Shown here piece after piece: positions 19,432 to 61,019 of a DNA stretch of 64,000 nt (positions within the stretch are counted from its first letter, which is position 1; every line of letters starts with the position of its first letter). The stretch comes from Flavobacterium sp. JAD_PAG50586_2 (GTDB lineage: Bacteria > Bacteroidota > Bacteroidia > Flavobacteriales > Flavobacteriaceae). Location: the NCBI GenBank assembly GCA_023213215.1, contig CP096136.1, forward strand, positions 1,550,001 to 1,614,000, written 5' to 3'. The notes under the pieces are model-generated. The model was given only the letters and a program-made list of their open reading frames with translations. It had not been told where the DNA came from and did not search any database. A program made the translations under genes and the position numbers.

Positions 19432-20252
19432 TTAATTTTGAATTTTTTTGAAAGATTTTCCAAGGTTTTCTATAACATCGTTAATCAACATGCTTTCGGG
19501 GCTTTGGGTTTCTAATGTTATATCGGCAGCTAAGCCATGGAGGTAGACTCCAAGTTTTGATGCATTTAAAGGTTCATATCCTTGTGCCAATAAAGCCGTA
19601 ATGATTCCGGTCAAAGCATCTCCGGAACCTCCTTTTGCCAAACCTGAATTACCTGTAGTATTTTCAAAGCTTTCGTCTCCGTTGGTAATAAATGTTTTAT
19701 GTCCTTTTAAGACGATGATGAGTTTTAACTCGCGGGCTTTTGCGATAGCAGTCTGCCTTCTGTTTTCATCTGAAACATGCTCTCCAAATAATCGGTCAAA
19801 TTCCTTTGGATGTGGCGTGAAAATAGATTGGTCTGGTAAAGACAGCATATACCCTGGATTTTTAGCTAAGATGTTTAACGCATCAGCATCAAAAATGATT
19901 GGAGAATCTACATTTTTTATCAATACTTTCAGTAGGTTTTCTGCCGCTTTATCCGTTCCGATTCCGGGACCAATGGCAATGGCATTATAAATGTTCCAAT
20001 GGTTTTCTTCTTCGCGGAAGGATGTCATTATTTCAGGAATCGAAGCAAAAACAGCAAATCTTTCTTTTTGGGAATGTTTAATGTGACCAAACCTGCTCCT
20101 GTTCTCAAACAAGCTTTAGCTGCAATAATGGCTGCGCCCATTTTGGATTGGCTTCCGGCGATAATGAGGGCATGCCCGTAATTTCCTTTATGGGAGTCCG
20201 GAATCCTTTTCTTAAAGATTTCTTGGATGCTATGGATATCAAGCGTTGTCAT
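19432..20252 (-). pseudogene. nnrD: ADP/ATP-dependent NAD(P)H-hydrate dehydratase, one frameshift
   Basis: Repairs hydrated NAD(P)H in the cytoplasm. The protein starts [16 protein letters not shown] at 20252 and reads [19 protein letters not shown] then [20 protein letters not shown] before shifting frame. One base added to the T5 run at 20065-20069 (A5 on the coding strand) joins it to [16 protein letters not shown] and the ribokinase-like core, with AIGPGIG, FTPHPKEFDRL and the catalytic-region NSGLAKGGSGDALTGII. Repaired length is 273 residues: the NnrD half only, without the NnrE epimerase domain. It lies 4 bp after the cation transporter. Confidence 0.85.
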
Positions 20253-20256
20253 AAAT

Positions 20257-21163
20257 TTAATCCTGAACGATAAAATCTTTCGGGTCTTCTTTTTAAATTC
20301 CGGTTGGATGTTGATGTGGTTGATATGGAATTTATTGAATAATAGTATTTCTATTTCATTAAGTAAAACGTTGAATTCGCTCATCTTTATATCATCGGCA
20401 CAATCAAGGTGTGCTTCGAGATGCAGTTCGTCATCATTCAGATGCCAAACATGGATGTGATGCAGCTTATTAACTCCTTTTATCTTATGTACTTCGCGTA
20501 CCAGTTCCTTAATATCAATAAAATCTGGTGTGAAGAGCATTAGCATTTTGGTAGCCGATTTTATCAAATCATAACTTACGTAAATTAAATACAACGCTAT
20601 CAACAACGTCATTACGCTATCAACCCAAAACCATCCATAAAGTTTCATAAGGATCCCGCCAATCAAAACAGCAACGGAAGCCAGCATATCTGTCAATAAA
20701 TGTAGGTAAGCCGATTTCATATTAAGGTTGTGTTTGGAGTCTTTTTTGAGTAATAAAACCGAGCTTCCGTTTACGGCAATTCCCAATATGGCCAACCAAA
20801 TAACCAACGTTGATTCGATGGGTTGCGGATGAAATATCCTTGTAGCTGCTTCATAGATTAAAAAAGGGCTACGATAACTAAGGTAATGGCATTGATAAAG
20901 GCAGCGATTAATTCGGCGCGTTTGTAACCAAAGGTGTGATCTATGGATGCTTTTCTTCTGGATAATTTATGGGCGCCGTAACTGAAAATCAACGATAAGA
21001 CATCGGAAAAATTGTGTAGTGCATCAGAAATCAAGGCTAAACTGCCTGAAATAATTCCGCCAACAATCTGCGCTATGGTTATGACAAGGTTTAGAAAAAT
21101 AGAAATAACTAAGTTCTTTCCTTTCACTTCATGTTTATGGATGTGAACGTGGTTGTGCTCCAT
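20257..21163 (-). pseudogene. Cation diffusion facilitator (CzcD/ZitB-like), two frameshifts
   Basis: An inner-membrane antiporter exporting zinc or similar divalent cations. After repair it has 302 residues. The N-terminus is His-rich (MEHNHVHIHKHEVKG), then six membrane helices with the metal sites ALISDALHNFSDV and [13 protein letters not shown], and a C-terminal cytoplasmic domain ([20 protein letters not shown]). Shift 1 is the A6 run at 20860-20865: one more base gives [20 protein letters not shown]. Shift 2 is T5 at 20290-20294: one more base gives [14 protein letters not shown] and stop. Unrepaired, the second shift falsely fuses this gene to nnrD. It is 3 bp downstream of rpiB. Confidence 0.85.
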
Positions 21164-21166
21164 CAG

Positions 21167-21598
21167 TTATTTACAGGCTATTTTATTAACTCTGGTTGCG
21201 TGCCTTCCGCCTTCGAAATTGGTATTCAAAAAAGTATCTACCATTTCAACTGCTTGTGGTATTGAAGTAAATCGAGCCGGAATACTTATGATATTAGCAT
21301 CGTTATGCTGTCTTGCCAAAGCCGCAATTTCCTTTGTCCAACATAATGCCGAACGAATGCCTTGGTGTTTATTAACTGTCATATTAATTCCGTTTCCCGA
21401 ACCGCAGATTACTATTCCAAAATCTGCTTTTTCGGTTTCAATATCTAAGGCTACAGGATGACCAAAATCCGGATAATCAACACTGTCAGAAGTATCTGTT
21501 CCATGATTCAAAATCTGATGTCCTTTTTTATTTAAAAAGTCGACGATTGCTTTCTTATATTCTGGTCCTGCGTGGTCGTTTCCGATGGAGATTTTCAT
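21167..21598 (-). CDS. rpiB: Ribose 5-phosphate isomerase B
   Basis: Interconverts ribose 5-phosphate and ribulose 5-phosphate in the pentose phosphate pathway. I start at MKISIGNDHAGPEYKK (21598), not at the upstream MRKFVQQITKD, because the family begins exactly here and a TAAATTTG box sits at 21625-21632. The 143-residue protein has DHAG, the catalytic-loop GICGSGNGINMTVNK-like ICGSGNGINMTVNK, and ALCWTKEIAALARQHNDANI. Typical length. It is the first gene of a minus-strand run (rpiB, CDF transporter, nnrD, tex). Confidence 0.95.
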   Translation of the reverse strand: MKISIGNDHAGPEYKKAIVDFLNKKGHQILNHGTDTSDSVDYPDFGHPVALDIETEKADFGIVICGSGNGINMTVNKHQGIRSALCWTKEIAALARQHNDANIISIPARFTSIPQAVEMVDTFLNTNFEGGRHATRVNKIACK

Positions 21599-21624
21599 AG
21601 TGTTGTCTTTTGTAATTTGTTGTA

Positions 21625-21632
21625 CAAATTTA
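21625..21632 (-). promoter_or_regulatory. -7 box TAAATTTG for rpiB
   Basis: Minus-strand TAAATTTG 26 bp before the rpiB ATG. It supports the short start. Confidence 0.5.
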
Positions 21633-21639
21633 CGCAAAC

Positions 21640-22355
21640 TATTGGATTGATTTTGGTTTATTATAACTGTTTGATTTTTAAATGATAGTAATTTTAAGGT
21701 TTTGCCTTATTTTTATAAGTGACTGAAAATAATTGCGTTATACCTAATTTAAATGTTAAAATTTTAGAATGTTAATAGCTTTTCGCAATTCGTTGATTTT
21801 CAGTTAACCTTAAATTAACATCAATTGTTAACAACTTCGGATAGAATTTTAGAAGTTTTTCTTGGTTACCCACTTTAAAATTGTAATGCAAAACCGGAAT
21901 GAAAAAAACAAATTTAGTTTGCGGAATTTTTGGAAAAGTTATCAATATAAAAATTGCTTTTCTTAACCGAAATCAACAATCAAAGTTATTTACAAAATTT
22001 AGGCATTGTTAGTTGTGAACAACTGTTAACTAAATTTTAAAAAGACTTAAAAATGAACCTTTTAATCTCTTAAAACTATGTTGATAAATCGATATAAAAA
22101 ACGATAACTCTAAAATCTAATTTTAAAATATAAAGTTATTGTACAAATCAACACCCTATAATAACCATCATAAATTTAAATTTAAAAATCTTTTTTTGTT
22201 TTTGTTTTTAATATGTGTTGACAACTTTTATGATTTAAGATGTAAACGAATATATTTAGATTATCTACGCTTTTATCCTAAATCATTACGCTTGTGTATT
22301 TATTAAAATAAATGAATTTAATTATGTTCTTTTGCCAAAATTAAAAAAATTAAAA
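21640..22355. other. AT-rich gene-free gap; candidate replication origin
   Basis: About 715 bp with no credible ORF between divergent rpiB (minus) and the propeller gene (plus). It contains five related 9-mers: TGTTAACAA (21826), TGTGAACAA (22014), TGTTAACTA (22024), TGTTGATAA (22079) and TGTTGACAA (22216). TGTTGATAA differs by one base from the DnaA box TGTGGATAA. A perfect palindrome AGTTGTGAACAACT lies at 22011-22024. Long A/T-only stretches at 22030-22210 could serve as an unwinding element. Calling it oriC is inference. Confidence 0.4.
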
Positions 22356-23822
22356 ATGAAGAAAATTTACTTTTTATTACTGTTAAACTCTGTAATTTCT
22401 ATAGCTCAAACTCAAATAGGATCAGATATTAATGGAGAAGCTGCAGATGATTGGAGTGGTTGGAATGTTTCCTTATCATCAGATGGTAATATTATGGCTA
22501 TTGGTGCTAAGAATAATGATGGAAATGGTTCTAATTCGGGACATGTACGTGTTTATCGAAATGTATCCGGTGTTTGGACCCAAATAGGTTTTGATATTAA
22601 TGGAGAAGCTTCAGATGATTGGAGTGGTGATAGTGTTTCCTTATCCTCAGATGGCAGTATTGTAGCTATTGGTGCTTCCCGTAATGATGGAAATGGTAAT
22701 AGTTCCGGTCATGTACGCGTATATCGAAATGTATCTGGCGTTTGGACCCAAATAGGTTCTGATATTAATGGTGAGGCACAATATGATGACAGTGGTGAGA
22801 GTGTTTCCTTATCTTCAGATGGCAATATTCTGGCTATTGGTGCTTCTTATAATACGGGCAATGGTGCTGGTGCTGGTCATGTTCGTGTTTATCAAAATAT
22901 ATCTGGCGTATGGACCCAAATAGGCTCTGATATCAATGGAGAAGCCGCAGGAGATCGAAGTGGTTTAACCGTTTCCTTATCTTCAGATGGCAGTATTGTA
23001 GCTATTGGTTCTCCCTATAGTAATGCAAATGGTACTGAATCAGGTCAGGTAAGAATCTTTCAAAATGTATCTGGTGTATGGACAAAAATAGGATCAGATA
23101 TTAATGGAGAAGCTGATACTAATTTTGGTTATGGTGTTTGCTTATCTTCAAATGGTGCCATTGTAGCTATGGGTGCTCCTTTCAGTAATGAAAATGGTAA
23201 TAATACCGGTCATGTACGTGTGTATCAAAATATATCCGGAGTTTGGACGCAAATGGGATCTAATATTGTTGGAGAAGCTGCAGGAGATCGAAGTGGGTAT
23301 AATCTTTCCTTATCTTCAGATGGTAGTATCCTGGCTATTGGTGCATACCAAAATGACGGTAACGGTGCTAGTTCCGGTCAGGTACGTGTCTATCAAAATG
23401 TATCAGGATTTTGGACCCAAAGAGGATCTGATATTGATGGTGAAGCGACTAATAATTATAATGGTTATAGTCTTTCCTTGTCAGCAAATGGAAGTATCCT
23501 GGCTACAGGAGCTTATCTAAATAGCGGTAATGGTGCTAATTCAGGTCATGTAAGGGTATATGATTTAACAGCTATTTTAGCTTCCGATTCTTTCGTTCAG
23601 TCTAACTTTTTGATCTATCCAAACCCTTCAAACGGAATTATAAATATTGCTTTGGAAGACAGTTTACAATTAGAAAAAGTAAGTGTTTATAACCAATTAG
23701 GTCAATTGGTAAAAAAAGCAGAAACTAATATATTGAATACGATTGAATTAGCACAGGGAACGTATTATATAGAAGTTGTTACTAACCAAGGAAAAGCAAC
23801 AAAGAAAATCATAGTAGAATAA
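22356..23822 (+). CDS. Secreted seven-repeat beta-propeller with T9SS sorting domain
   Basis: A 488-residue secreted protein. I start at MKKIYFLLLLNSVISIAQ (22356), a good signal peptide, not at the upstream TTG. Seven repeats of about 56 residues follow, each of the form GSDINGEA...SLSSDG.I.AIGA...G.VRVY.N.SGVWTQ, fitting a seven-bladed propeller. The repeats are very alike at DNA level too (168-bp unit). The last ~75 residues (FLIYPNPSNGIINI onward, ending KKIIVE) are a type A T9SS C-terminal sorting domain. The protein therefore likely crosses the outer membrane and is attached or released. The ligand is unknown. Confidence 0.85.
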   Translation: MKKIYFLLLLNSVISIAQTQIGSDINGEAADDWSGWNVSLSSDGNIMAIGAKNNDGNGSNSGHVRVYRNVSGVWTQIGFDINGEASDDWSGDSVSLSSDGSIVAIGASRNDGNGNSSGHVRVYRNVSGVWTQIGSDINGEAQYDDSGESVSLSSDGNILAIGASYNTGNGAGAGHVRVYQNISGVWTQIGSDINGEAAGDRSGLTVSLSSDGSIVAIGSPYSNANGTESGQVRIFQNVSGVWTKIGSDINGEADTNFGYGVCLSSNGAIVAMGAPFSNENGNNTGHVRVYQNISGVWTQMGSNIVGEAAGDRSGYNLSLSSDGSILAIGAYQNDGNGASSGQVRVYQNVSGFWTQRGSDIDGEATNNYNGYSLSLSANGSILATGAYLNSGNGANSGHVRVYDLTAILASDSFVQSNFLIYPNPSNGIINIALEDSLQLEKVSVYNQLGQLVKKAETNILNTIELAQGTYYIEVVTNQGKATKKIIVE

Positions 23823-23970: not shown

Positions 23971-26151
23971 ATGAGTAAGAAACCAAAAAAGTTCGGGAAA
24001 AATGAGAAAACCTTTTCCGAAAAGATATTTAAGATACTATCAAAGAACGCCAATAAGCCTTTTAACTACAAACAGATTGCTGCTATTTTAGAATTAGATG
24101 ATACCAAAAGCAGGAATGAAATAATCAAGGATTTAAAGATATTGGCAGCCCAAAAATTAATCATAGAATCAGAGCCGGGAAAGTATTTAGTCAAAGCTTC
24201 CAGCCAGCAATATTACGAAGGTACAGTCGATATGACTTCGAGAAAGTCAGGCTATTTTGTTTGTGATGAATTAGAAAACGATGTGTTCATTCCGTTCATA
24301 AACCTCAATCATGCTTTAGATAAAGACAAGGTAAAAGCCTATGTCTATAACCGAAGAAGTTCCCGGAAACCCGAAGCGGAAGTAATAGAAATCATAGAAA
24401 GACACAAAACAGAATTTGTGGGTGTAGTTGATATCCAGAAGAATTTCGGATTTGTAACTACGGCAAACGCCAAAATGTATACCGATATTTTTATTCCGAA
24501 AAGCAAATTAGGAGATGCCGAACATGGAGATGTAGTTTTGGTAACCCTGGAAGATTGGCCTGCAAAAGCCGATTCTCCATTCGGATCAGTGATAAAAGTG
24601 CTTGGAAAACCAGGAGAACACAATACCGAGATCCATGCGATTTTAGCCGAATATGGTTTACCGTATGATTTTCCAATAGAAGTGGAAGCTTATGCTAACA
24701 AAATTGATACTTCCATAACTGAAAAGGAAATAGAAAAACGTCGGGATATGCGAAAGGTACTGACGTTTACCATCGATCCAAAAGATGCAAAAGATTTTGA
24801 TGATGCTTTATCATTTCAGGTTTTGGATAATGGAAACTTTGAAATTGGTGTCCATATTGCCGATGTTTCGCATTATTTACAGGAAGGAACTATTTTAGAT
24901 GATGAAGCCTATAATCGCGCGACTTCTGTGTATTTAGTAGACCGTGTTGTTCCAATGCTTCCTGAAGTATTATCCAATTTTGCCTGTTCGCTTCGTCCGT
25001 ATGAGGAAAAATATACATTTTCAGCCATATTCGAATTAACGCCAAAAGCTGAAGTAGTAAATCAATGGTTTGGAAGAACGATAATTTATTCCGATCAGCG
25101 ATTTGCCTATGAAGAAGCACAGCACATCATTGAAACTAAAGGCGATATCATTCCGGCTGAAATTTCATTGACCGGAAAAGAATATAAGGTTCCGGCCGAA
25201 ATTGTGGCTGCTACCTTAAAACAAGACGAATTAGCCAAAATACTCAGAAGGAAAAGAATGGCTGATGGCGCTATTTCATTTGATAAGGTGGAAGTAAAAT
25301 TCAATCTCGATGAAAATGCAGAACCGGTTGGCGTTTTCTTTAAAGTATCAAAAGATGCCAATCATCTTATTGAGGAATTTATGTTGTTAGCCAACAGAAA
25401 AGTGGCCGAATTTATCGGAAAACAAAAGAAAACCTTTGTCTATCGTATTCACGATGAGCCTAATGAAGATAAGTTAATCAATCTGCAGACAGTGATTTCT
25501 AAGTTCGGTTATTCCATTAGTATGAAATCCAAACAGGATATTTCTAAGTCGTTGAATAATTTATTGAATGACGTTAATGGAAAAAAAGAACAGAATTTGG
25601 TGGATACTTTAACAATTAGAAGTATGAGCAAGGCCAAGTATTCGACCGAAAATATTGGGCATTATGGTTTGGCTTTTGATTATTACAGTCATTTCACCTC
25701 ACCAATCCGTCGTTATCCCGATGTAATGGCGCATCGATTATTACAGTATTATTTAGACGGAGGAAAATCGGTTGATGCAGAAATTTACGAAGAAAAATGT
25801 AACCATTCCAGCAATATGGAAGGTTTGGCCGCGCAGGCTGAAAGAGATTCTGTAAAATACATGCAGGTAAAATACATGCAGGATCACAAAGACCAGGAAT
25901 TTTTAGGTGTGATTTCCGGAGTTACCGAATGGGGAATTTATGTTGAAATTGTCGAAAACAAATGTGAGGGAATGGTTCGAATCCGAGAGATAAAAGAAGA
26001 TTATTATACTTTTGATGAAAAGCAATATGCCTTGGTAGGACAAGCGACACAAAGTATTTTGCAGCTTGGAGATGAAGTTTTTGTAAAGGTAAAAACAGCC
26101 GATTTGGTTAAGAAACAATTGGATTTCCATTTTATCAGAAGAAACGTTTAA
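23971..26151 (+). CDS. rnr: Ribonuclease R
   Basis: A 726-residue processive 3'-5' exoribonuclease. Order of parts: basic N-terminal region with a winged-helix-like segment (KPFNYKQIAAILELDD), cold-shock domains (GTVDMTSRKSGYFVCD, FGFVTTANAKMYTDIFIP), the RNB catalytic domain with FTIDPKDAKDFDDALS (metal-binding Asp cluster) and HFTSPIRRYPDVMAHR, and a C-terminal S1 domain (FLGVISGVTEWGIYVEI). All key residues are visible. No clear promoter box stands immediately upstream. It is followed 11 bp later by the head-GIN-domain gene. Confidence 0.95.
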   Translation: MSKKPKKFGKNEKTFSEKIFKILSKNANKPFNYKQIAAILELDDTKSRNEIIKDLKILAAQKLIIESEPGKYLVKASSQQYYEGTVDMTSRKSGYFVCDELENDVFIPFINLNHALDKDKVKAYVYNRRSSRKPEAEVIEIIERHKTEFVGVVDIQKNFGFVTTANAKMYTDIFIPKSKLGDAEHGDVVLVTLEDWPAKADSPFGSVIKVLGKPGEHNTEIHAILAEYGLPYDFPIEVEAYANKIDTSITEKEIEKRRDMRKVLTFTIDPKDAKDFDDALSFQVLDNGNFEIGVHIADVSHYLQEGTILDDEAYNRATSVYLVDRVVPMLPEVLSNFACSLRPYEEKYTFSAIFELTPKAEVVNQWFGRTIIYSDQRFAYEEAQHIIETKGDIIPAEISLTGKEYKVPAEIVAATLKQDELAKILRRKRMADGAISFDKVEVKFNLDENAEPVGVFFKVSKDANHLIEEFMLLANRKVAEFIGKQKKTFVYRIHDEPNEDKLINLQTVISKFGYSISMKSKQDISKSLNNLLNDVNGKKEQNLVDTLTIRSMSKAKYSTENIGHYGLAFDYYSHFTSPIRRYPDVMAHRLLQYYLDGGKSVDAEIYEEKCNHSSNMEGLAAQAERDSVKYMQVKYMQDHKDQEFLGVISGVTEWGIYVEIVENKCEGMVRIREIKEDYYTFDEKQYALVGQATQSILQLGDEVFVKVKTADLVKKQLDFHFIRRNV

Positions 26152-39003: not shown

Positions 39004-40509
39004 TTATAAACTTTCAATTGCTTTCTCCAATCGCTCAATGGTTTTTTCCTTTCCGATCAATTCTACAATGTCAAAAAGATGCGGGCCTTTTAAGGCTCCA
39101 ACCAAACTCAAACGGAACGGCTGCATTACTTTTCCCATTCCAATTTCGTTTTGCGTCATCCAGTCTTTAACGACAGTTTCTATGTTTAACGAAGTGAAAT
39201 CGCTGATATTTTCCAATACTGAAATCAATTCCTGCATTAATCTTGGCGTTTCCTCTTTCCAGTTTTTGGCTGCTTTTTCATCATAAGATGTCGGTGCTTC
39301 AAAAAAGAAATTGCTCATCTCCCAGAATTCGGAAACAAAGTTCGCTCGCTCTTTTATTAAAGAAACTATTTTGACCAATGATGTATAATCGATATCAATC
39401 CCTTTTTCGTAAACAGTAGGAGCAAAGGCTTTCGCTAAATCGTCATCAGATTGTTTTTGCAGGTATTGATGATTGAACCATTTGTTTTTCTCCGGGTCAA
39501 ATTTGGCTCCGGCCTTGTGAACACGATTCAAATCGAATTTCTCAACCAGTTCTTCCAACGAAAATAATTCCTGTTCTGTACCGTCATTCCATCCCAATAA
39601 AGCCAGAAAGTTGATTACAGCTTCTGGTAAAAATCCATTCTCTCTGTAACCGGATGAAATTCCTTCTTCCGATTTCCATTCCAATGGAAACACAGGAAAT
39701 CCTAATTTATCTCCGTCGCGTTTTGATAATTTGCCGTTTCCGACAGGTTTTAAGATCAATGGCAAATGCGCAAATTCAGGAGCTTCCCATCCAAATGCTT
39801 TGTATAATAAACTGTGTAATGGCATTGAAGGCAACCATTCCTCACCACGGATTACGTGTGATGTTTCCATTAAATGATCATCAACAATGTTGGCCAAATG
39901 ATAAGTCGGCATTCCGTCAGATTTAAACAAAACCTTATCGTCTAACAGATTCGTTTCAAATTTAATATCGCCACGAATGATGTCATGCAAATGCAAAGTT
40001 TCATCCACCGGAGTTTTAAAACGGATTACATAATCTTCACCGGAAGCAATTCTTTTTTCGATTTCGGCTGCCGAAATGACTAAAGACGTATCCAGTTTTT
40101 CACGATTGTGCCAGTTGTATATGAATGTTTTTCCTTGCTCTTCGTGTTGTTTTCTATGCGCATCCAACGCTTCAGCAGTATCGAAAGCATAATACGCCCA
40201 ACCTGAATTTATCAGTTGATCAGCATATTGTTTATACAATTGTTTTCTTTCCGATTGACGGTAAGGGCCAAATTTTTCGTTTTTTCCAACCGTTTCGCTT
40301 GGGGCAATTCCAAGCCATTCCAAAGCTTCAAAAATATATTCTTCAGCTCCGGGAACAAAACGGTTTTGGTCGGTATCCTCTATTCTCAGATAAAAAACAC
40401 CGTTATTTTTTTTCGCGAATAGATAATTGAATAAGGCAGTCCTAACTCCACCAATGTGTAAAGGTCCGGTTGGACTTGGAGCAAAACGAACTCTAACAGG
40501 TCTTGACAT
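39004..40509 (-). CDS. gltX: Glutamyl-tRNA synthetase
   Basis: A class I aminoacyl-tRNA synthetase, 501 residues, charging tRNA-Glu. I start at MSRPVRVRFAPSPTGPLHIGG (40509). The upstream extension to 40566 is only the translated promoter and repeat. The HIGH motif is LHIGG, FLRIEDTDQNRF follows, and the KMSKS motif is KLSKRDGDKLGF. The C-terminal anticodon-binding domain is complete. Its promoter contains a 7-bp tandem repeat (see findings). It converges with the gene at 36524 across the IS. Confidence 0.96.
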   Translation of the reverse strand: MSRPVRVRFAPSPTGPLHIGGVRTALFNYLFAKKNNGVFYLRIEDTDQNRFVPGAEEYIFEALEWLGIAPSETVGKNEKFGPYRQSERKQLYKQYADQLINSGWAYYAFDTAEALDAHRKQHEEQGKTFIYNWHNREKLDTSLVISAAEIEKRIASGEDYVIRFKTPVDETLHLHDIIRGDIKFETNLLDDKVLFKSDGMPTYHLANIVDDHLMETSHVIRGEEWLPSMPLHSLLYKAFGWEAPEFAHLPLILKPVGNGKLSKRDGDKLGFPVFPLEWKSEEGISSGYRENGFLPEAVINFLALLGWNDGTEQELFSLEELVEKFDLNRVHKAGAKFDPEKNKWFNHQYLQKQSDDDLAKAFAPTVYEKGIDIDYTSLVKIVSLIKERANFVSEFWEMSNFFFEAPTSYDEKAAKNWKEETPRLMQELISVLENISDFTSLNIETVVKDWMTQNEIGMGKVMQPFRLSLVGALKGPHLFDIVELIGKEKTIERLEKAIESL

Positions 40510-40526
40510 TTTCTTAAATTTTGATG

Positions 40527-40534
40527 CAAAGATA
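40527..40534 (-). promoter_or_regulatory. -7 box TATCTTTG for gltX
   Basis: Minus-strand TATCTTTG lies 17 bp before the gltX ATG. A TTG 22 bp upstream, within the 7-bp repeat, could be the -33 element. Confidence 0.6.
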
Positions 40535-40538
40535 AACA

Positions 40539-40570
40539 GAAGCAAGAAGTAAGAAGCAAGAAGCAAGAAG
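40539..40570. repeat. 7-bp simple sequence repeat (GAAGCAA)n
   Basis: Units begin at 40539, 40546, 40553, 40560 and 40567 (the last is partial; the second has T for C). The array occupies the spacer and -33 region of the gltX promoter. Confidence 0.85.
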
Positions 40571-40675: not shown

Positions 40676-43600
40676 TTGGACAATTCAAAAATCATCTATC
40701 AAAAGTTAGAAGACTTTATTAGGAAGTTTTACACCAACGAATTGCTGCGGGGAACCATTTTCTTTGTAGGGATTGGTTTGCTGTATTTTTTATTCACACT
40801 TTTCGTGGAATACTTTCTTTGGCTTAAACCAACAGCCAGGACAATTTTGTTTGGAACCTTTGTTCTTGTTGAGCTCTTTCTAATATTTAGATTTATCTGT
40901 TTTCCGCTATTCAAATTATTCAAACTTCAAAAAGGCATTGATTATGAGGAGGCTTCGATAATTATCGGAAATCATTTCGGTGAAATAGAAGATAAACTGA
41001 CTAACTTTTTGCAGCTTTCTTATGATAGCAACAAATCGGAATTGTTAGCCGCATCGATTGACCAAAAAGCAAATACGTTGCAGCCGATTCCGTTTGGGAA
41101 TGCTGTTAATTTTGGTAAAAACAAGAAATACTTGCCGTTGGCGATAATCCCCATTTTGTTTTTTGCCTTCTTTTATATTTCCGGAAACAGTGCTTTGATT
41201 TCGCAAAGTTTGAATCGTGTGGTTAATTTCAAAAAACAATTCTTACCGCCGGCTCCATTCGAATTTGAAATCCTGAACAAAGATTTGCAAACCGAACAGA
41301 ACAAGGATTTTCTTTTGAAAGTAAGGACGGTTGGTAAAGTAGCGCCAGAAAATGCAGTGATTTTCATTGATGATGAAAGCTATTTTATGGAAAGCAATAA
41401 ACAGGGAGAATTCGAATTTGTTATTCCAAAACCTTCTGAAGATGTCGAATTCCACATTGAAGCAAATGATGTTTCCTCTCATGATTATGAATTGAAAGTG
41501 GTTACCGTGCCATCAATCGCCAATTTTGAAATGGTATTGAATTTCCCAAATTACCTCAATAAAAAAACAGAAGTTATCAAAGGAACCGGAAATGCGATAA
41601 TTCCCGAAGGCACTCAGGTAACCTGGAGAATGAATACTCTGGCAACCCAAAAAGTAGATTGGGTCAATGAGAATGCAAAATATACTTTTGCTAAAAACGA
41701 CAATATGTTTACATTGTCAAAAAGCATCCTCCAGAATGTAGATTATCAAATCCTGACATCGAATAACAAGGTTCAGAATTACGAAAAGCTGAATTACCAA
41801 ATTTCAGTAATTAGGGATCAGTTTCCAACCATTACAGTAAACAATGCTCCTGATAGTTTGAAAGTCAATAAGAACTTTGTTTTAGGCCAGGTTTCTGACG
41901 ATTACGGACTTTCAAGACTTCAAATTGTCTACTATCCTAAAGCAACACCAAACATTGCTAAAAAGGCAGCTATAAACGTTAAGAGAGATGTTTACGACCA
42001 GTTTGTGTTTTCATTTCCAAGTAATCTTCCGGTAGAAGAAGGAGTTTCTTATGAATACTATTTCGAGATATTCGATAATGATGCCATCCACAATTACAAA
42101 AGCACAAAATCATCAGTATTCAGTAGCCGAATCGCAACAGAAACAGAGAAGCTGGACGAACAAATGCAACAGCAGAATGAAAACATCAATTCATTGGCCA
42201 AATCATTAAAAGCCCAGGACAAGCAATTATCTGAAATGGATAAACTGCAGAAAATGGGCAAAGAAAAAGAGAATCTCGAATACAAAGACCAACAGAAGGT
42301 AAATGATTTTATCCAGCGTCAAAAGCAGCAGGATGAAATGATGAAAGAGTTCTCAGAGAAGATGAAGGATAATTTGGAGAAATTCAAAACAGAAAAGAAT
42401 GATGAGAAAAAAGAAGCACTTCAGGATCGACTTGAAAAGTCTAAGGAAGAAATAGAAAAGAATAAAAAGCTGTTAGACGAACTTCAGAAACTGAATGATA
42501 AAATCAGTAAGGAAGAATTGTTTGAAAAGATGGAGAAATTCCAACAGGCAAGCAAGAATCAAACGAAGAGTTTAGAACAATTAGTTGAACTTACTAAACG
42601 TTATTACGTAGAAAAGAAAGCACAGCAAATCGCTGACAAAATGGATAAGCTAGCTGAGAAGCAGGACAAATTAGCCGAAAAGACAGATGAGAATAATGCC
42701 GAAAAGCAGGAAGAAATCAACAAGGAATTTGATAAACTTCAGGAAGAACTAAAAGACCTGCAAAAGGAGAATAATGAATTGAAATCTCCAATGGACATGC
42801 CTAAAACTGAAGAAAAGGAGAAAAGCATTGATGAGGATTTAAAGAACGCAAAAGACCAATTGCAAAAGCAACAAAAGGACAAAGCCAAGCCTAAACAGAA
42901 AAGCGCTGCTAAGAAGATGAAACAGATGAGCCAGCAAATGCAGGAACAAATGGAGTCGGGTGAAATGGAACAAATGGAAGAAGATGTAGCCATGTTGCGT
43001 CAGATTTTGGATAATCTTTTGGCTTATTCGTTTTCTCAGGAAGATGTGATGAAACAGTTTAAGAACCTTAAACGTGGAGCACCATCATTCAACAAAAACC
43101 TAAAAACGCAACAGGATTTAAAACAACAGTTCAAACATATTGACGATAGTTTGTTTGCGATGTCATTGCGTAATCCAAAAATTGCCGAAGATGTCACTAA
43201 AGAAATTGGTAACGTTCAATATTACGTAGATAAAGCGATTGAAAATTTAGCTGAAGCTAATGTTCCGAAAGGAAATTCACATCAGCAATATGCGGTTTCC
43301 TCTTCCAACAAATTAGCAGACATGTTGAGCGATATGCTGAATGGCATGCAGATGCAGATGTCGGGTTCAGGCGCAGGAAAGCCAAAGCCGGGACAAGGAC
43401 AAGGCGCTGGAATGCAACTTCCGGACATTATCAAAAAGCAGGAAGGTTTAGGCGAAAAGATGAAAAAAGGCATGAAGCCAGGAGATAAACCAGGCGAAGG
43501 TAATGAAGGTAAACAAGGAGAAGGAAAACAAGGCGAGGGCGAAGGTCAGGGACAAGGTCAGAATGGCAACAAAAGCGGAAAGGGAGGCAGTGGAAAAGGA

Positions 43601-44059
43601 AGTGGTCAAGGCAATGAAAAAGGCGGAGAAAACGGTCAGGACGGAGAAGGCGATGCAAAGGCAATAATGGAGATTTACAAAGAGCAGCAACAGTTGCGCG
43701 AGGCTTTGGAAAAGGAGCTTAAGAAGCAAGGTGTAGGCGGTAACGGCCAAAACGCTTTAGACCAAATGAAACAGATAGAGAAGCAATTGTTGAATAAAGG
43801 CTTTAATAACGAAACACTTCAAAAGATTCTCAATGTTAAGTATGAGCTGTTGAAATTAGAAAAAGCGGTTCAGCAACAAGGCGAAGATAAGAAGCGTCAA
43901 TCGGAAACGAATAAGAAAGAATTTAGCAATCAGGCAACTGCATTGCCATTGCGTCTTCAAGAATATTTGAATAGTATTGAAATTTTAAATAGACAAAGCT
44001 TACCTTTGCGCTCCAATTTTAACCAGAAGGTTCAAGAATATTTCAAAACCAATGATTAG
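40676..44059 (+). CDS. DUF4175-family large membrane protein
   Basis: A 1127-residue protein common in Bacteroidota, function unknown. Two or three N-terminal membrane helices (~residues 20-80 and 155-170, LPLAIIPILFFAFFYISG) are followed by immunoglobulin-like beta regions (~210-480). Then comes a long charged coiled coil (~490-760, repeats of E/K/Q such as KQDKLAEKTDENNAEKQEEI) and a Gly/Gln/Lys low-complexity stretch near 900-1000 (GEGEGQGQGQNGNKSGKG). The start is TTG at 40676 because no ATG is in frame upstream. The stop overlaps ybeY by 8 bp. A structural envelope role is inferred. Confidence 0.85.
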   Translation: MDNSKIIYQKLEDFIRKFYTNELLRGTIFFVGIGLLYFLFTLFVEYFLWLKPTARTILFGTFVLVELFLIFRFICFPLFKLFKLQKGIDYEEASIIIGNHFGEIEDKLTNFLQLSYDSNKSELLAASIDQKANTLQPIPFGNAVNFGKNKKYLPLAIIPILFFAFFYISGNSALISQSLNRVVNFKKQFLPPAPFEFEILNKDLQTEQNKDFLLKVRTVGKVAPENAVIFIDDESYFMESNKQGEFEFVIPKPSEDVEFHIEANDVSSHDYELKVVTVPSIANFEMVLNFPNYLNKKTEVIKGTGNAIIPEGTQVTWRMNTLATQKVDWVNENAKYTFAKNDNMFTLSKSILQNVDYQILTSNNKVQNYEKLNYQISVIRDQFPTITVNNAPDSLKVNKNFVLGQVSDDYGLSRLQIVYYPKATPNIAKKAAINVKRDVYDQFVFSFPSNLPVEEGVSYEYYFEIFDNDAIHNYKSTKSSVFSSRIATETEKLDEQMQQQNENINSLAKSLKAQDKQLSEMDKLQKMGKEKENLEYKDQQKVNDFIQRQKQQDEMMKEFSEKMKDNLEKFKTEKNDEKKEALQDRLEKSKEEIEKNKKLLDELQKLNDKISKEELFEKMEKFQQASKNQTKSLEQLVELTKRYYVEKKAQQIADKMDKLAEKQDKLAEKTDENNAEKQEEINKEFDKLQEELKDLQKENNELKSPMDMPKTEEKEKSIDEDLKNAKDQLQKQQKDKAKPKQKSAAKKMKQMSQQMQEQMESGEMEQMEEDVAMLRQILDNLLAYSFSQEDVMKQFKNLKRGAPSFNKNLKTQQDLKQQFKHIDDSLFAMSLRNPKIAEDVTKEIGNVQYYVDKAIENLAEANVPKGNSHQQYAVSSSNKLADMLSDMLNGMQMQMSGSGAGKPKPGQGQGAGMQLPDIIKKQEGLGEKMKKGMKPGDKPGEGNEGKQGEGKQGEGEGQGQGQNGNKSGKGGSGKGSGQGNEKGGENGQDGEGDAKAIMEIYKEQQQLREALEKELKKQGVGGNGQNALDQMKQIEKQLLNKGFNNETLQKILNVKYELLKLEKAVQQQGEDKKRQSETNKKEFSNQATALPLRLQEYLNSIEILNRQSLPLRSNFNQKVQEYFKTND

Positions 44060-44474
44060 TTTTAATTACGAGTTAGATTTCAAATTAGAAGATGAAACCG
44101 CTTATTCAGACTGGATATCCAAAGTCATTAGCTCTGAAAATAAGCACGAAGGAGAGATTAACTATATCTTCTGTGATGATGACTATTTAATTGAATTAAA
44201 CCAGCAGTATTTAAGCCACGATACCCTTACGGACATTATCAGCTTTGATTATTCTGAGGGAAATCACTTACAGGGTGATATTTTCATTTCAATCGAAAGA
44301 GTACGTGAAAATGCCGAAGACTTCAAAGTTCCTTTTAATGAAGAGTTGAAACGGGTTTTAGTTCACGGTGTTTTACATTACTGCGGATATAAAGATAAAA
44401 GCGAGGAAGACGAAAAACTCATGCGTCAGAAAGAAGAGGAAAAAATGAAGATGTTCCACGTGAAACATAACTAA
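44052..44474 (+). CDS. ybeY: Endoribonuclease YbeY
   Basis: A 140-residue single-strand-specific metalloendoribonuclease involved in 16S rRNA maturation and ribosome quality control. The zinc-binding motif is visible as VLVHGVLHYCGYKD (HxxxHxxGY; the usual final His is replaced by Lys-Asp). DTLTDIISFDY is the other conserved patch. It overlaps DUF4175 by 8 bp and is 3 bp before mnmG. Its last codons contain an exact 16-bp parS site. Confidence 0.9.
   Translation: MISFNYELDFKLEDETAYSDWISKVISSENKHEGEINYIFCDDDYLIELNQQYLSHDTLTDIISFDYSEGNHLQGDIFISIERVRENAEDFKVPFNEELKRVLVHGVLHYCGYKDKSEEDEKLMRQKEEEKMKMFHVKHN
44452..44467. other. parS site 1 (exact consensus)
   Basis: TGTTCCACGTGAAACA is identical to the 16-bp ParB/Spo0J binding site of B. 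subtilis. It lies inside the 3' end of ybeY and codes FHVKH. parS sites cluster near replication origins. Confidence 0.85.
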
Positions 44475-44477
44475 TAA

Positions 44478-46349
44478 ATGTTTTTAGAAAAATACGACGT
44501 TATAGTAGTAGGTGCCGGTCACGCCGGATGTGAAGCCGCGGCAGCTTCAGCCAATTTAGGCTGTAGTACATTGTTGGTTACAATGAGCCTGCAGAACATT
44601 GCACAGATGTCCTGTAATCCTGCGATGGGCGGAATTGCCAAAGGGCAAATTGTTCGCGAGATTGATGCGCTTGGCGGATATTCCGGAATCATTTCAGATA
44701 ATACCGCTGTGCAGTTTAAAATGTTGAATAAATCTAAAGGACCGGCAATGTGGTCTCCAAGAGTACAGTCAGACCGAATGCGTTTTGCTGAAGAATGGAG
44801 ATTGCGTTTGGAACAAACGCCGAATGTTGATTTTTATCAGGAAATGGTCAAAGGTCTTTTGATTAAGAATAATAAGATTGAAGGCATAGTTACTTCACTC
44901 GGAATCGAAATTAAAGCGAAAACAGTTGTTTTGACTAATGGGACATTCCTTAACGGATTAATCCATATTGGCGACAAACAATTTGGCGGAGGAAGAGCAG
45001 GTGAAAGTGCGGCTTACGGAATTACAGATGATTTAATTAAAGTTGGTTTCGAAGCAGGAAGAATGAAAACAGGAACGCCGCCAAGAGTTGACGGACGTTC
45101 TTTGGATTATTCTAAAATGAGAGAAGAACCGGGTGACGATGTTCCGGATAAATTTTCTTATTCTGATGAAACTAAACCTTTATCGCATCAATTGCTTTGC
45201 CACATGACTTATACTTCAAACGAAGTGCATAACATACTTCGTGAAGGTTTTGACCGTTCGCCTATGTTCAACGGAAGAATTCAAAGTATCGGACCAAGAT
45301 ATTGCCCATCTATAGAAGATAAAATTAATCGCTTTGCAGATAAAGACAGACACCAGCTATTTGTAGAGCCAGAAGGGTGGAATACGGTTGAGGTCTATGT
45401 AAACGGTTTTTCAACTTCTTTGCCAGAAGATATTCAGTTTAAGGCATTGCGATCAGTAGAAGGATTTGAAAAAGTCAAGTTCTTCCGTCCAGGATATGCC
45501 ATTGAATACGATTATTTCCCGCCAACACAGCTCAAGCATACACTCGAAACTAAACTCGTTGAAGGCTTGTATTTCGCCGGACAGATTAATGGAACCACAG
45601 GGTATGAGGAAGCAGCGTCACAAGGAATGATGGCCGGGATAAATGCTGCCTTAAAAGTAAAAGAACAAGGACCAATGATCTTACGTCGCGATGAAGCTTA
45701 TATTGGAGTCCTTATAGATGATTTGATTACTAAAGGAACCGAAGAGCCATACAGGATGTTTACTTCACGTGCTGAATACAGAACCTTATTGCGTCAGGAT
45801 AATGCTGATTATAGATTAACGCCAAAGTCTTTTGAAATAGGTTTGGCGTCAGAGAAAAGATTACGCAGAATGGAACACAAGTTCAACGAAAGTGAAAAAA
45901 TGGTCAATTTTTTCAAGGAAACGAGTGTTACTCCAGAAGAAGCAAATCCCATTTTAGAAGCCAAGGAAAGTTCTCCAATGGTTCAATCGGATAAAATGTT
46001 TAAAGTCTTTTCTCGTCCGCAAATTGATCTGGATGATTTTATGAAATTTGACAAAGTAAAAGAATACATTGCTGGAAATGATTTAGACAAAGAGATTATC
46101 GAGCAGGCAGAAATACAGGTTAAGTATTCTGGTTACATCGAAAAGGAAAGAAACAATGCCGAGAAGCTGATTAGGTTAGAAGATATCAAAATCCCTGAGA
46201 ATTTCGATTACCATAAAATCAAATCAATGTCGATTGAAGCAAAGCAAAAACTAAGCAAAATACGTCCGGTAACCATTTCACAAGCATCAAGAATCAGTGG
46301 AGTTTCTCCGGCTGATGTTTCAGTTTTATTAATTTATATGGGAAGATAA
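44478..46349 (+). CDS. mnmG: tRNA uridine-5-carboxymethylaminomethyl modification enzyme MnmG
   Basis: A 623-residue FAD-dependent enzyme that, with MnmE, modifies U34 of certain tRNAs. The N-terminal FAD-binding motif is VVGAGHAGCEAA. Family signatures are present: CNPAMGGIAKGQIVREIDALGG, KTGTPPRVDGRSLDY and YFAGQINGTTGYEEAASQG. The C-terminal helical domain ends ISGVSPADVSVLLIYMGR. It is 3 bp after ybeY and has parS sites on both sides. Complete and of normal length. Confidence 0.97.
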   Translation: MFLEKYDVIVVGAGHAGCEAAAASANLGCSTLLVTMSLQNIAQMSCNPAMGGIAKGQIVREIDALGGYSGIISDNTAVQFKMLNKSKGPAMWSPRVQSDRMRFAEEWRLRLEQTPNVDFYQEMVKGLLIKNNKIEGIVTSLGIEIKAKTVVLTNGTFLNGLIHIGDKQFGGGRAGESAAYGITDDLIKVGFEAGRMKTGTPPRVDGRSLDYSKMREEPGDDVPDKFSYSDETKPLSHQLLCHMTYTSNEVHNILREGFDRSPMFNGRIQSIGPRYCPSIEDKINRFADKDRHQLFVEPEGWNTVEVYVNGFSTSLPEDIQFKALRSVEGFEKVKFFRPGYAIEYDYFPPTQLKHTLETKLVEGLYFAGQINGTTGYEEAASQGMMAGINAALKVKEQGPMILRRDEAYIGVLIDDLITKGTEEPYRMFTSRAEYRTLLRQDNADYRLTPKSFEIGLASEKRLRRMEHKFNESEKMVNFFKETSVTPEEANPILEAKESSPMVQSDKMFKVFSRPQIDLDDFMKFDKVKEYIAGNDLDKEIIEQAEIQVKYSGYIEKERNNAEKLIRLEDIKIPENFDYHKIKSMSIEAKQKLSKIRPVTISQASRISGVSPADVSVLLIYMGR

Positions 46350-46355
46350 AAAATC

Positions 46356-46371
46356 TGTTCCACGTGAAACT
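46356..46371. other. parS site 2 (one mismatch)
   Basis: TGTTCCACGTGAAACT differs from the parS consensus only in its last base. It lies 7 bp after the mnmG stop codon and 1.9 kb from site 1. Confidence 0.75.
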
Positions 46372-48193: not shown

Positions 48194-50454
48194 ATGGAAT
48201 TATCAGCCGAAGCCAATTATGTATTGCAATTTATTAATCAGACGAATCGTTCCATCTTCCTTACCGGAAAAGCCGGAACAGGAAAAACGACACTGCTTAA
48301 GGAAATAATTTCCACTACACACAAAAAATGTGTAGTTGTGGCGCCAACGGGTATCGCCGCATTAAATGCTGGCGGAGTTACAATTCATTCGATGTTTCAA
48401 TTACCTTTCGGCGGATTTATTCCCGATAATTCTATACCTCAGTTCTCAGAAAATTCCAAGTTTGAAACAAAAGCTACATTAAGAAGGCATTTCAAAATGA
48501 GCGGTTTAAAAAAATCTGTGATTCAAAATATGGAATTGCTTATTATTGATGAAGTCAGTATGCTCCGCGCCGATCTGATGGATGCCATCGATTTCATGTT
48601 GCAGTCTGTCCGAAGGAAAAGCCAGCCTTTTGGAGGCGTTCAGGTGCTTTTTATTGGCGATTTATTACAGTTGCCTCCAATCATCAAGGAAGAAGAATGG
48701 CGCACATTGCGCGCTTATTATAAAGGAAAATTCTTTTTTCATTCCCATGTAATTCAACAAAATCCTCCATTGTATATTGAGTTATCTAAAATCTTCCGAC
48801 AATCAGATGAGCAGTTTATTGCTGTTTTAAATAATTTGAGGAATAATCAAATTTCTCAAAACGATATTCAAATATTAAATCAGTTTGTACAACCCAATTT
48901 TGATCTGAAGGCAAACAAAGGTTATATTACTCTGACTACCCATAATCTCAAGGCAGATGCTATAAATACTCAATCACTACAGGATTTAAAAGGAAAATCT
49001 ATGGTCTACAAAGCTTTAATCGTAGACGACTTCCCAGATAAGATATATCCTGTGGAAGAAAATTTAGAATTGAAAGCAGGAGCACAGGTCATGTTTATCA
49101 AAAACGATTTATCCTTCGAAAAAAATTACTTTAACGGAAAAATGGGTCTAATCCAATCGCTTTCCGAAGAAGAAATACTGGTTCATTTCCCCGAAGAAAA
49201 GAAGACAATCGAAGTAGAACGATACGAATGGCAGAATATCCGTTATTATGTTGATCAAAATACCAAAGAGATAGAAGAAGAAGTATTGGGAACTTTCACG
49301 CATTATCCAATAAAATTAGCTTGGGCCATAACCGTTCACAAAAGCCAGGGATTAACTTTTGATAAAGCTGCGCTTGATGTTTCGCAGGTTTTCCTTCCCG
49401 GGCAGGCTTATGTGGCACTCTCCCGATTACGATCGCTAAATGGCCTCGTGTTGCTTTCTCCGCTACAGATGAACGGAATATCGAGCGATCAGGATGTTAT
49501 GGAATACGCAGAGAATAGGGCTGACGAAACTCTTTTGGAAAATTCTTTGAAGCTGGAAACGAAAAATTTTATCCATAATTATCTGAAATCAAGCTTCGAC
49601 TGGGCAGATTTAGCACAGGAATGGCGTAACCACCAATTTAGCTATAACGAAAATGCAGAGCTTTCAGCCAAATCAAAACATGCTGAATGGGCAAAAAAAC
49701 AAACAGATGTTATTGAAAATCTTTTGAATCCATCAAAAAAATTCATCGCCCAGCTAAACACACTTTTTAGGGAAGAAGACGTTGATTTTAAATTTGTTTT
49801 CGAAAGGATTGAAGCTGCCTATGCCTATTTCCTACAGCCGCTAGATACATTGGTTCATGAGATCTTGTGGAAATTGGAAGAGGTAATCCGCATTAAAAAA
49901 GTCAAAGCATTTTATGATGAGCTGTCAGTCTTGGAGGAAGCTCAAATAAAGGCGGTTTTGCAACTAATGAAAGCCAGGTTATTAATAGAAACTGTAATGA
50001 AAGGCGAAACCATTTCAAAGGAGAAATTATCTTCAGAAGCCATTAAGTATTACAAAATCAGGAAACTGGAAAGTATCAGGGAAGAATTTAAAAACACAAA
50101 TGTCACGCTTATCGAAGACGAAGTCGACCTGGAACGTTACACCAAAAAGAAAAAACCGCTAAAGAACCCAAAAAATCAACCGTTCAGGAAACCTATGAAC
50201 TGTGGCTGCAAAAGAATTCCATCAAAGAAATCGCGGCCATCCGAAAACTCACGACCCAAACAATTGCCGGCCATATTGCCAAACTTATAGAAACCGAAAC
50301 TATAGCAATTACAGATGTCTTGCCGGAAGAAAAAATACACGAATTGGCAGAGGCTTTCAAAGGCTACAAGGAAGAAACCCTTAACGGATTGAAAGAACAA
50401 TATGGAGACAAATTTACTTGGGACGAATTGAAAATGTTCAAGGCAAGTTTGTAA
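48194..50454 (+). CDS. PIF1/RecD-like helicase with C-terminal HTH, 3' frameshift
   Basis: A 753-residue superfamily 1 helicase after repair. Walker A is FLTGKAGTGKTTLLKEI, then VVVAPTGIAALNAGG, Walker B LLIIDEVSMLRADLMD, VLFIGDLLQLPPI, and the C-terminal UvrD_C_2 motifs ITVHKSQGLTFDKA and YVALSRLRSLNGLVLLSP. One extra A in the A6 run at 50150-50155 restores the tail, which contains a helix-turn-helix (SIKEIAAIRKLTTQTIAGHI, HTH_40 type) and ends KMFKASL. It probably unwinds DNA in repair or replication. The stop is 1 bp from the end of the convergent DoxX gene. Confidence 0.88.
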
Positions 50455-60632: not shown

Positions 60633-61019
60633 CTAAAGATTTTTTCCTTCCTGAATGGTTTTGATGAACTTTTCAAAAAGCTGGATGGTCTTTTCATTTA
60701 TTTCCTGATAGTTGAGCCTTTCATTCGTTTGATAAAAAAACATGCAGCAGTATTTTGTATCGGCATTTTCGGTCAGCAATTGTTTATTAAGTCGATAACA
60801 TTCGCGAAGCAAACGCTTAAAGTAATTTCGGTCAACCGCTTTTTTGAAGTATTTTTTGGAAACGGAAACTCCAATTTTAATCGGAACATTTTCCTCAAAA
60901 TCATGGGCGACGTAAACCAGCCTTAACGGATATTTACTTACCGATTTACCTTTTGTAAACAGCGAATCGATAATCTTTTTGCTTTTGAGTTTTTCCGTTT
61001 CCGGATAAGAAAAATCCAT
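60633..61019 (-). CDS. rnpA: Ribonuclease P protein component
   Basis: A 128-residue protein cofactor of RNase P, which matures tRNA 5' ends. The RNR motif is visible as KAVDRNYFKRLLRECYR, preceded by VSVSKKYFKK. The N-terminal helix-strand pattern and size fit the family. It begins in a TAATG overlap with the upstream gene's stop. In most bacteria rnpA is near rpmH and oriC; rpmH is not adjacent here. Confidence 0.93.
   Translation of the reverse strand: MDFSYPETEKLKSKKIIDSLFTKGKSVSKYPLRLVYVAHDFEENVPIKIGVSVSKKYFKKAVDRNYFKRLLRECYRLNKQLLTENADTKYCCMFFYQTNERLNYQEINEKTIQLFEKFIKTIQEGKNL

Follow-up and report, generated by a model that had tools for sequence, protein, structure and literature searches.

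Among the known systems closest to the probable origin described here is the basal unwinding system (BUS) of Bacillus subtilis oriC, which, in the available extracts of the papers concerned (PMC8287927, PMC6669920, PMC10721633, PMC8235120), comprises two co-oriented DnaA boxes, a short GC-rich spacer and DnaA-trios. According to the same extracts, Arg202 and Glu228 are the residues of B. subtilis DnaA in contact with the guanine of the trio, Asn187 touches the adenine, and the trios of H. pylori are read on the lower strand. The search rule for such elements, as given in the accessible part of PMC8287927, requires an uninterrupted run of three or more 3'-NAN-5' triplets no farther than 16 bp from a box. 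Among the Flavobacteriia, Ori-Finder places oriC at mnmG in Mariniflexile litorale and Algorimicrobium, as far as the available text of these reports goes (one figure legend of the Algorimicrobium paper swaps the oriC and ter genes), and the corresponding portion of the report on Elizabethkingia meningoseptica gives an Ori-Finder-predicted origin far from dnaA. The rpiB-rnr spacer is unnamed as an origin in the literature searched, which was covered partially and with DoriC outside the search; this placement may already be listed in DoriC.

In Flavobacterium sp. JAD_PAG50586_2, the window (the whole 64,000-nucleotide stretch of DNA that was analyzed, to which the coordinates below refer unless the genome is named) contains an intergenic gap at 21638-22355 (no strand), located at approximately 1.572 Mb in the single contig of 3,808,583 bp, of which the window covers bases 1,550,001-1,614,000. 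The nearest rpiB sequences retrieved, up to 90% identical, belong to Flavobacterium and Flavobacteriaceae records, in keeping with a Flavobacterium. Taking into account the ORF map, the AT content, the skew split and the comparative core, this gap is very probably the chromosomal origin. An earlier note on this DNA had proposed an oriC here, in an AT-rich spacer free of ORFs and flanked by mostly divergent genes, and the description holds. The AT content of the gap is 0.78, compared with 0.65 for the window, and no ORF of at least 80 aa lies wholly inside it; the ORF listed from 22332 starts with TTG, and an ATG in the same frame is found at 22356. Five main minus-strand ORFs (17.3-21.6 kb) and six main plus-strand ORFs (22.4-30.7 kb) face outward, with small overlapping ORFs on opposite strands also present amid both divergent runs. 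The left neighbor is rpiB (21167-21637, minus strand, LacAB_rpiB family, Pfam PF02502). On the right, a gene assigned by its domain matches to an FG-GAP repeat protein with a T9SS sorting domain (22356-23822, plus strand) stands between the origin and rnr (23971-26151, plus strand, ribonuclease R family, Pfam RNB). A gene similar to this one also occurs in 5 of 80 related loci. An Rfam scan of 21000-23000 gave no match at gathering scores.

The GC skew was measured on sampled stretches, 43 of them in the 3.81-Mb genome itself, and a half/half split was tested on a 1% grid. The skew amplitude is weak, with a mean of +0.036 on the right side of the gap (16 of 21 stretches positive) and of -0.022 on the left side (16 of 22 negative). 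The best split nevertheless falls at the gap, within a few tens of kilobases (permutation p 5e-5); a switch located elsewhere, which the earlier note had named as the outcome contrary to its proposal, is not observed in the sampled stretches. Over the window alone, cumulative G-C reaches its lowest point at 14.5 kb and not at 21.6 kb, on a shallow plateau that reaches the gap, so that this coarse switch supports the neighborhood and not the exact spacer. Fourfold-site skew per coding strand was set aside, its noise being too high for use. Six of eight single-contig relatives were also sampled, with 10 stretches each, centered on the rpiB locus. The predicted sign is obtained for 10 of 10 stretches in each of G040, G014, G056 and G021 and for 8 of 10 in G059; the sixth, G023, gives 5 of 10 at rpiB (p 0.14), with no clear switch. 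A change of skew sign at the locus is therefore seen in five of the six sampled relatives, with tied best splits spanning several percent of the genome.

The gap further contains a cluster of DnaA-type boxes. The related 9-mers described earlier are indeed present, but their number is not five, since six are counted under the consensus TGTKRWYAR. The first, TGTTAATAG (21770-21778, plus strand), begins at an offset of 132 from the rpiB start that is common to many Flavobacterium loci. It is followed by a palindromic site, TTGTTAACAA, at 21825-21834 (no strand), which is read as TGTTAACAA on either strand and thus counts twice (21825/21826, offsets 187/188), by TGTGAACAA at 22014-22022 (plus strand, offset 376), by TGTTGATAA at 22079-22087 (plus strand, offset 441) and by the inverted box TGTTGACAA at 22216-22224 (listed on the plus strand, offset 578), which, from its sequence and the core alignment, ends the core discussed below. 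The box at 22079 differs by one mismatch from TGTGGATAA and, as previously reported, by a single base from the DnaA box TTATCCACA; it is the only site in the gap within one mismatch of the latter. For the family-type consensus the cluster is above chance, with six boxes against a mean of 0.45 in first-order dinucleotide randomizations (1 of 5000 random versions of the gap reached six) and none with six, at a maximum of five, among 13,910 overlapping 720-bp windows drawn from 40 sampled stretches and the remainder of the window, figures that are flattering because TGTKRWYAR was picked after inspection of the relatives and of the gap. The perfect palindrome and the long A/T-only stretches that had been noticed are likewise found: the 14-bp palindrome TAAATTTAAATTTA at 22171-22184 lies within an A/T-only run at 22170-22189 (no strand). 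Judging from its composition, this run is probably the start of a duplex-unwinding element, and together with its neighbors it forms an AT-rich candidate element adjoining the boxes.

The evidence that, on comparative grounds, decides the origin assignment is a conserved core of 94 positions at 22132-22225 (plus strand), defined by alignment, model and genome search. Its model was derived from 45 aligned cores, which were selected from the profile-matched loci and include the window copy as one row. In the genome under study, the model scores 52.8 bits at 22132-22225, and the runner-up 12.6 bits. At E 0.001 a core match is obtained in 134 of 149 family genomes, in 130 of them as a single match; 26 of the 149 supplied model rows, and the core is found in 108 of the 123 that contributed none. 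Under stricter filters, 120 of 125 good-quality family genomes carry it. A second match occurs in four genomes (G003, G045, G054, G078), in two of them overlapping on the other strand. Fifteen of the 149 have no core at E 0.001, ten of these being less than 90% complete and five not; upon closer inspection of three, G005 gave nothing, and G058 and G035 gave weak matches. In an order-level draw at E 0.01, the core is present in 31 of 99 genomes: all 12 that belong to the family, and 19 of the 87 that do not, whose scores are mostly weak, although one other family (f7) shows it in 9 of 11 (best 33.2 bits, in G222). The core model is thus chiefly characteristic of the family and loses its power beyond it. 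A separate, related locus profile, built from 60 rpiB/rnr loci, matches 109 of 123 fetched loci of this type (some genomes being included twice) and misses 14, several of them at contig ends or beyond an insertion; in 100 control stretches of 20 kb it never exceeded 7.6 bits. Collectively, the skew split at the gap and the widespread core, strongly matched only once in this genome, support the oriC assignment of the earlier note.

Of 30 family loci retrieved with rpiB, 23 have rnr as the direct right-hand neighbor, oriented divergently and inside the 1.5 kb obtained; the remaining seven are L006 and L021, at contig ends, the window locus with its inserted gene, G021, G024 and G059, where rnr lies 1.6-2.5 kb from rpiB, and G023, where the distance is 37 kb. 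Across 80 Flavobacterium-type loci, five of which derive from one F. paronense assembly, the rpiB-rnr distance ranges between 0.35 and 3.5 kb. Box-like words are enriched upstream in 29 relatives, with 31 copies of TGTTAATAA in 18 loci, 24 of CTATTAACA in 17, 14 of TGTTGATAA in 11 and 8 of TGTGGATAA in 8, against an expectation of 0.35-2.7. Moreover, box offsets from rpiB recur in many of the 80 loci at approximately 132, 188, 376 or 386, 441, 507 and 578, and the window spacer has its boxes at the corresponding positions, the one at 507 being degenerate. In twelve of the 80, the 1.2 kb directly upstream of rpiB (a shorter stretch at contig ends) are free of boxes, and in seven of these twelve the core is found farther on. 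Boxes within one mismatch of TTATCCACA number at most one in 16 of 27 family gaps scored and in 43 of the 80 stretches upstream of Flavobacterium-type rpiB, some of which end before the core.

Two side observations concern the same set of loci. In F. paronense CECT 8460 (L151-L155), the rpiB-origin locus occurs five times, once on a 3.2-Mb contig and four more times on three contigs 15-20 kb long; either the assembly is redundant or these are genuine copies in the vicinity of the origin. Furthermore, a Flavobacterium-type rpiB is present in four MAGs whose titles name Nitrotoga, Rhizobium, Bifidobacterium and Bdellovibrio (L156, L158, L202, L211), with the origin core matched in L156, L158 and L211; these are probably mislabelled or mixed bins.

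Divergent genes require promoters, and the rpiB-rnr pair is retained in many relatives, so the gap could be regarded as a shared rpiB/rnr promoter-regulatory region in which the sites would be targets of a transcription factor, or of DnaA in a regulatory role. This explanation is hardly credible in view of the loci in which the core survives apart from these genes. In G023, the 3.4 kb around rpiB contain no box, and boxes with a weak core (21.5 bits) remain 5' of rnr, 37 kb away. The rpiB-rnr spacer of F. cauense and F. supellecticarium is closed to approximately 355 bp and carries no boxes, and the core with further boxes is located approximately 12 kb away, between gltX-like and DUF4175 genes (L231, G061:C1:537876; L232, G060:C11:58906). 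The matches of these flanking genes in the window are at 39004-40566, which encodes a class I tRNA synthetase (E or Q) that we take to be gltX, and at 40676-44059 (DUF4175); the 500 bp at this junction in the window itself hold one box. From the sequence comparison, the displaced core is read as a short-range move of the origin. The persistence of the core away from rpiB and rnr makes the origin a unit separable from its neighbors and counts against a mere promoter region, which would also leave the skew switch unexplained.

A further set of origin-associated markers is found to the right of the gap, around mnmG (gidA; 44478-46349, plus strand, TIGR00136). Perfect matches to GTTNCACGTGNAAC, which we take to be the parS-type consensus, occur exactly twice in the whole genome, at window 44453 and 46357. 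The corresponding sites are TGTTCCACGTGAAACA at 44452-44467, 5' of mnmG (no strand, pattern match), and a second one at 46356-46371, 3' of mnmG (no strand), where the 16-mer has one mismatch and the central 14 positions none. With this assumed consensus the two sites lie 22-24 kb from the gap, in agreement with the 22 kb given earlier, and rnpA, previously placed 39 kb away, is found at 60633-61019, 38 kb from the gap. The same region encodes a PIF1-like helicase with RecD-type similarity (48194-50290), 26 kb from the origin. An origin beside mnmG, with the gap as a nearby AT-rich regulatory spacer, would accord with the flanking parS-type sites, with the Ori-Finder predictions that, in their available text, name mnmG as the origin gene of M. 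litorale and Algorimicrobium, and with the sampled skew, which is unable to separate points 22 kb apart. The local sequence points the other way: the 1.5 kb preceding mnmG contain no family-type box and the 1.5 kb following it a single one, versus six in the 0.7-kb gap; the gap also has the sole strong match to the core; and the moved core of F. cauense lies approximately 4 kb before the mnmG match and not beside it. Placement at mnmG is thus considered quite improbable, and the gap remains the preferred origin.

As regards dnaA, this gene is the classic origin marker and lies at the origin in many bacteria. Here it is located at 795 kb of the genome, approximately 0.78 Mb from the gap; no box cluster is found around it, no 720-bp stretch of the surrounding 3.5 kb holding more than two family-type boxes, and none of the six core matches detected down to E 1 in this genome falls there, which reduces the probability of an origin at dnaA to a practically negligible level. 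The dnaA frame itself (L001:1030-2172, genome approximately 794.9-796.0 kb) stops after 380 aa, compared with 474-518 aa in 40 relatives, and by eye the remainder runs on in another frame; a sequencing indel is the likely cause. The genome completeness is 94.56%. Further signs of assembly frame errors are given by a cation-efflux gene broken into two ORFs at window 20028-21163, one of which also bears the start of the adjoining Carb_kinase domain.

Within the conserved core of the gap, the parts follow the order weak box-like site, box-like site, four C-rich bases, five triplets, AT tract and inverted box. The weak tandem pair and a period-3 element (22136-22172), which the earlier note does not mention, lie in the best-conserved part. 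Site 1 of the pair, TTATTGTAC (22136-22144, plus strand), is a weak box-like site with columns 5, 6 and 8 invariant in 89 rows; site 2, AAATCAACA (22145-22153, plus strand), is mostly CTATTAACA by column in the aligned relatives. The co-oriented tandem positions are conserved across rows, yet both sequences are weak in this species. Four base pairs (CCCT) after site 2, the minus strand presents a period-3 DnaA-trio-like element, 3'-TAT TAT TGG TAG TAT-5' (22158-22172). This element was recognized only by side-by-side comparison of the relatives, and a pattern of at least three in-frame NAT or TAN triplets finds no match in the gap. Plus-strand A occupies model columns 27, 30, 33, 36 and 39, so that the first base is T at each of the five triplets, in 98-100% of 89 unique rows. 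In this T-first register, read on the minus strand from 3' to 5', the 445 triplets include TAT 200 times, TAG 93, TGG 73 and TAA 36 times. The BUS-preferred 3'-GAT-5' occurs in none of the 445, and two consecutive 3'-GAN-5' triplets near a box in none of 84 rows. With regard to the BUS search rule, the longest 3'-NAN-5' run is two in this species and likewise in 57 of the 84 rows, all of which fail the rule, and the other 27 rows pass it with three triplets or more. The boxes beside known trios point the same way as the boxes here, and it is from this general background that the triplets are tentatively assigned to the minus strand. Since the order of the parts is BUS-like but the search rule fails, the element is presumed to work like a BUS and is not classed as one.

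The residues of the DnaA pocket were read off an alignment to 8btg, with B. subtilis numbers, for 35 family DnaA sequences (30 loci from 41 genomes, plus five more). Asn187, Ile190, Ile193, Arg202 and Glu228 correspond to Gln, Ile, Val, Ile and Val in 34 of the 35, so that only Ile190 of the BUS pocket is kept; the DnaA of G023 differs, with Gln, Ile, Ser, Ile and Ala. Seven loci from other families of the class have Ile, Val or Ser at position 202 and Val, Ala or Ile at position 228; an eighth such locus, L327, yielded no protein. A draw from the phylum added 30 loci of other classes, every one of them with Ser or Thr at position 202 and 20 of them retaining Glu228. One tentative and rather doubtful explanation is that the trio is re-coded in Flavobacteriaceae, where DnaA would capture thymine (3'-TAN-5') and not guanine (3'-GAN-5') at the first base, in a hydrophobic pocket made of Ile202 and Val228 with Gln187. 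A phylum-wide link between the trio base and the DnaA pocket was looked for and is not clean, a strict link being contradicted by L289, L305 and L312 of other classes, which show G/A-type triplets beside boxes near dnaA although Arg202 and Glu228 are both absent in them as well; the tie between pocket and triplet is consequently suggestive only. These three loci were picked by eye among the 11 of 30 loci with some candidate five-triplet run, many of which are plain T-rich.

From the arrangement of these parts, we infer a sequence of events in which DnaA would bind the boxes scattered over 21770-22087 as well as the tandem pair (22136-22153). A DnaA filament starting from the tandem pair would extend rightward on the minus strand across the period-3 element (22158-22172) and melt the AT tract between this element and the inverted box at 22216. 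Helicases are generally loaded after origin melting; initiation here would proceed in the same manner, with forks travelling both ways, and ParB at the two parS-type sites around mnmG would organize the new origins. The practical value of the assignment is a sequence-defined origin for a large family where dnaA can mislead and where there are often too few standard boxes for an origin to be located by counting them. In addition, the movable 94-bp core with its non-canonical triplets offers a direct test, beyond the studied species, of an unwinding mechanism proposed to be broadly conserved. The origin is ordinary in kind; the noteworthy aspects are its conserved, movable core and the unusual triplets.

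Compared with bacterial oriC regions in general, this one shares the box cluster, the AT tract, the intergenic position, the skew switch and the nearby parS-type sites, but its boxes are mostly TGTTRAYAA, with one only within one mismatch of TTATCCACA. As in the published Flavobacteriia predictions, the origin is away from dnaA and agrees with the GC skew, and the gene named for M. litorale and Algorimicrobium, mnmG, is only 22 kb from the gap in this genome; unlike in those predictions, the conserved core pins the origin to the rpiB side of that interval. The similarity to the B. subtilis BUS comprises the two co-oriented box-like sites, the 4-bp C-rich spacer, the period-3 element and the AT tract that follows it, as well as the reading of the element, in line with what is assumed for known trios, on the opposite strand relative to the TTATNNACA direction. 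In contrast to the BUS, where the triplets are 3'-GAT-5', those found here read 3'-TAN-5', and the Arg202 and Glu228 that make the guanine contacts in B. subtilis are Ile and Val in 34 of the 35 family DnaA sequences examined.
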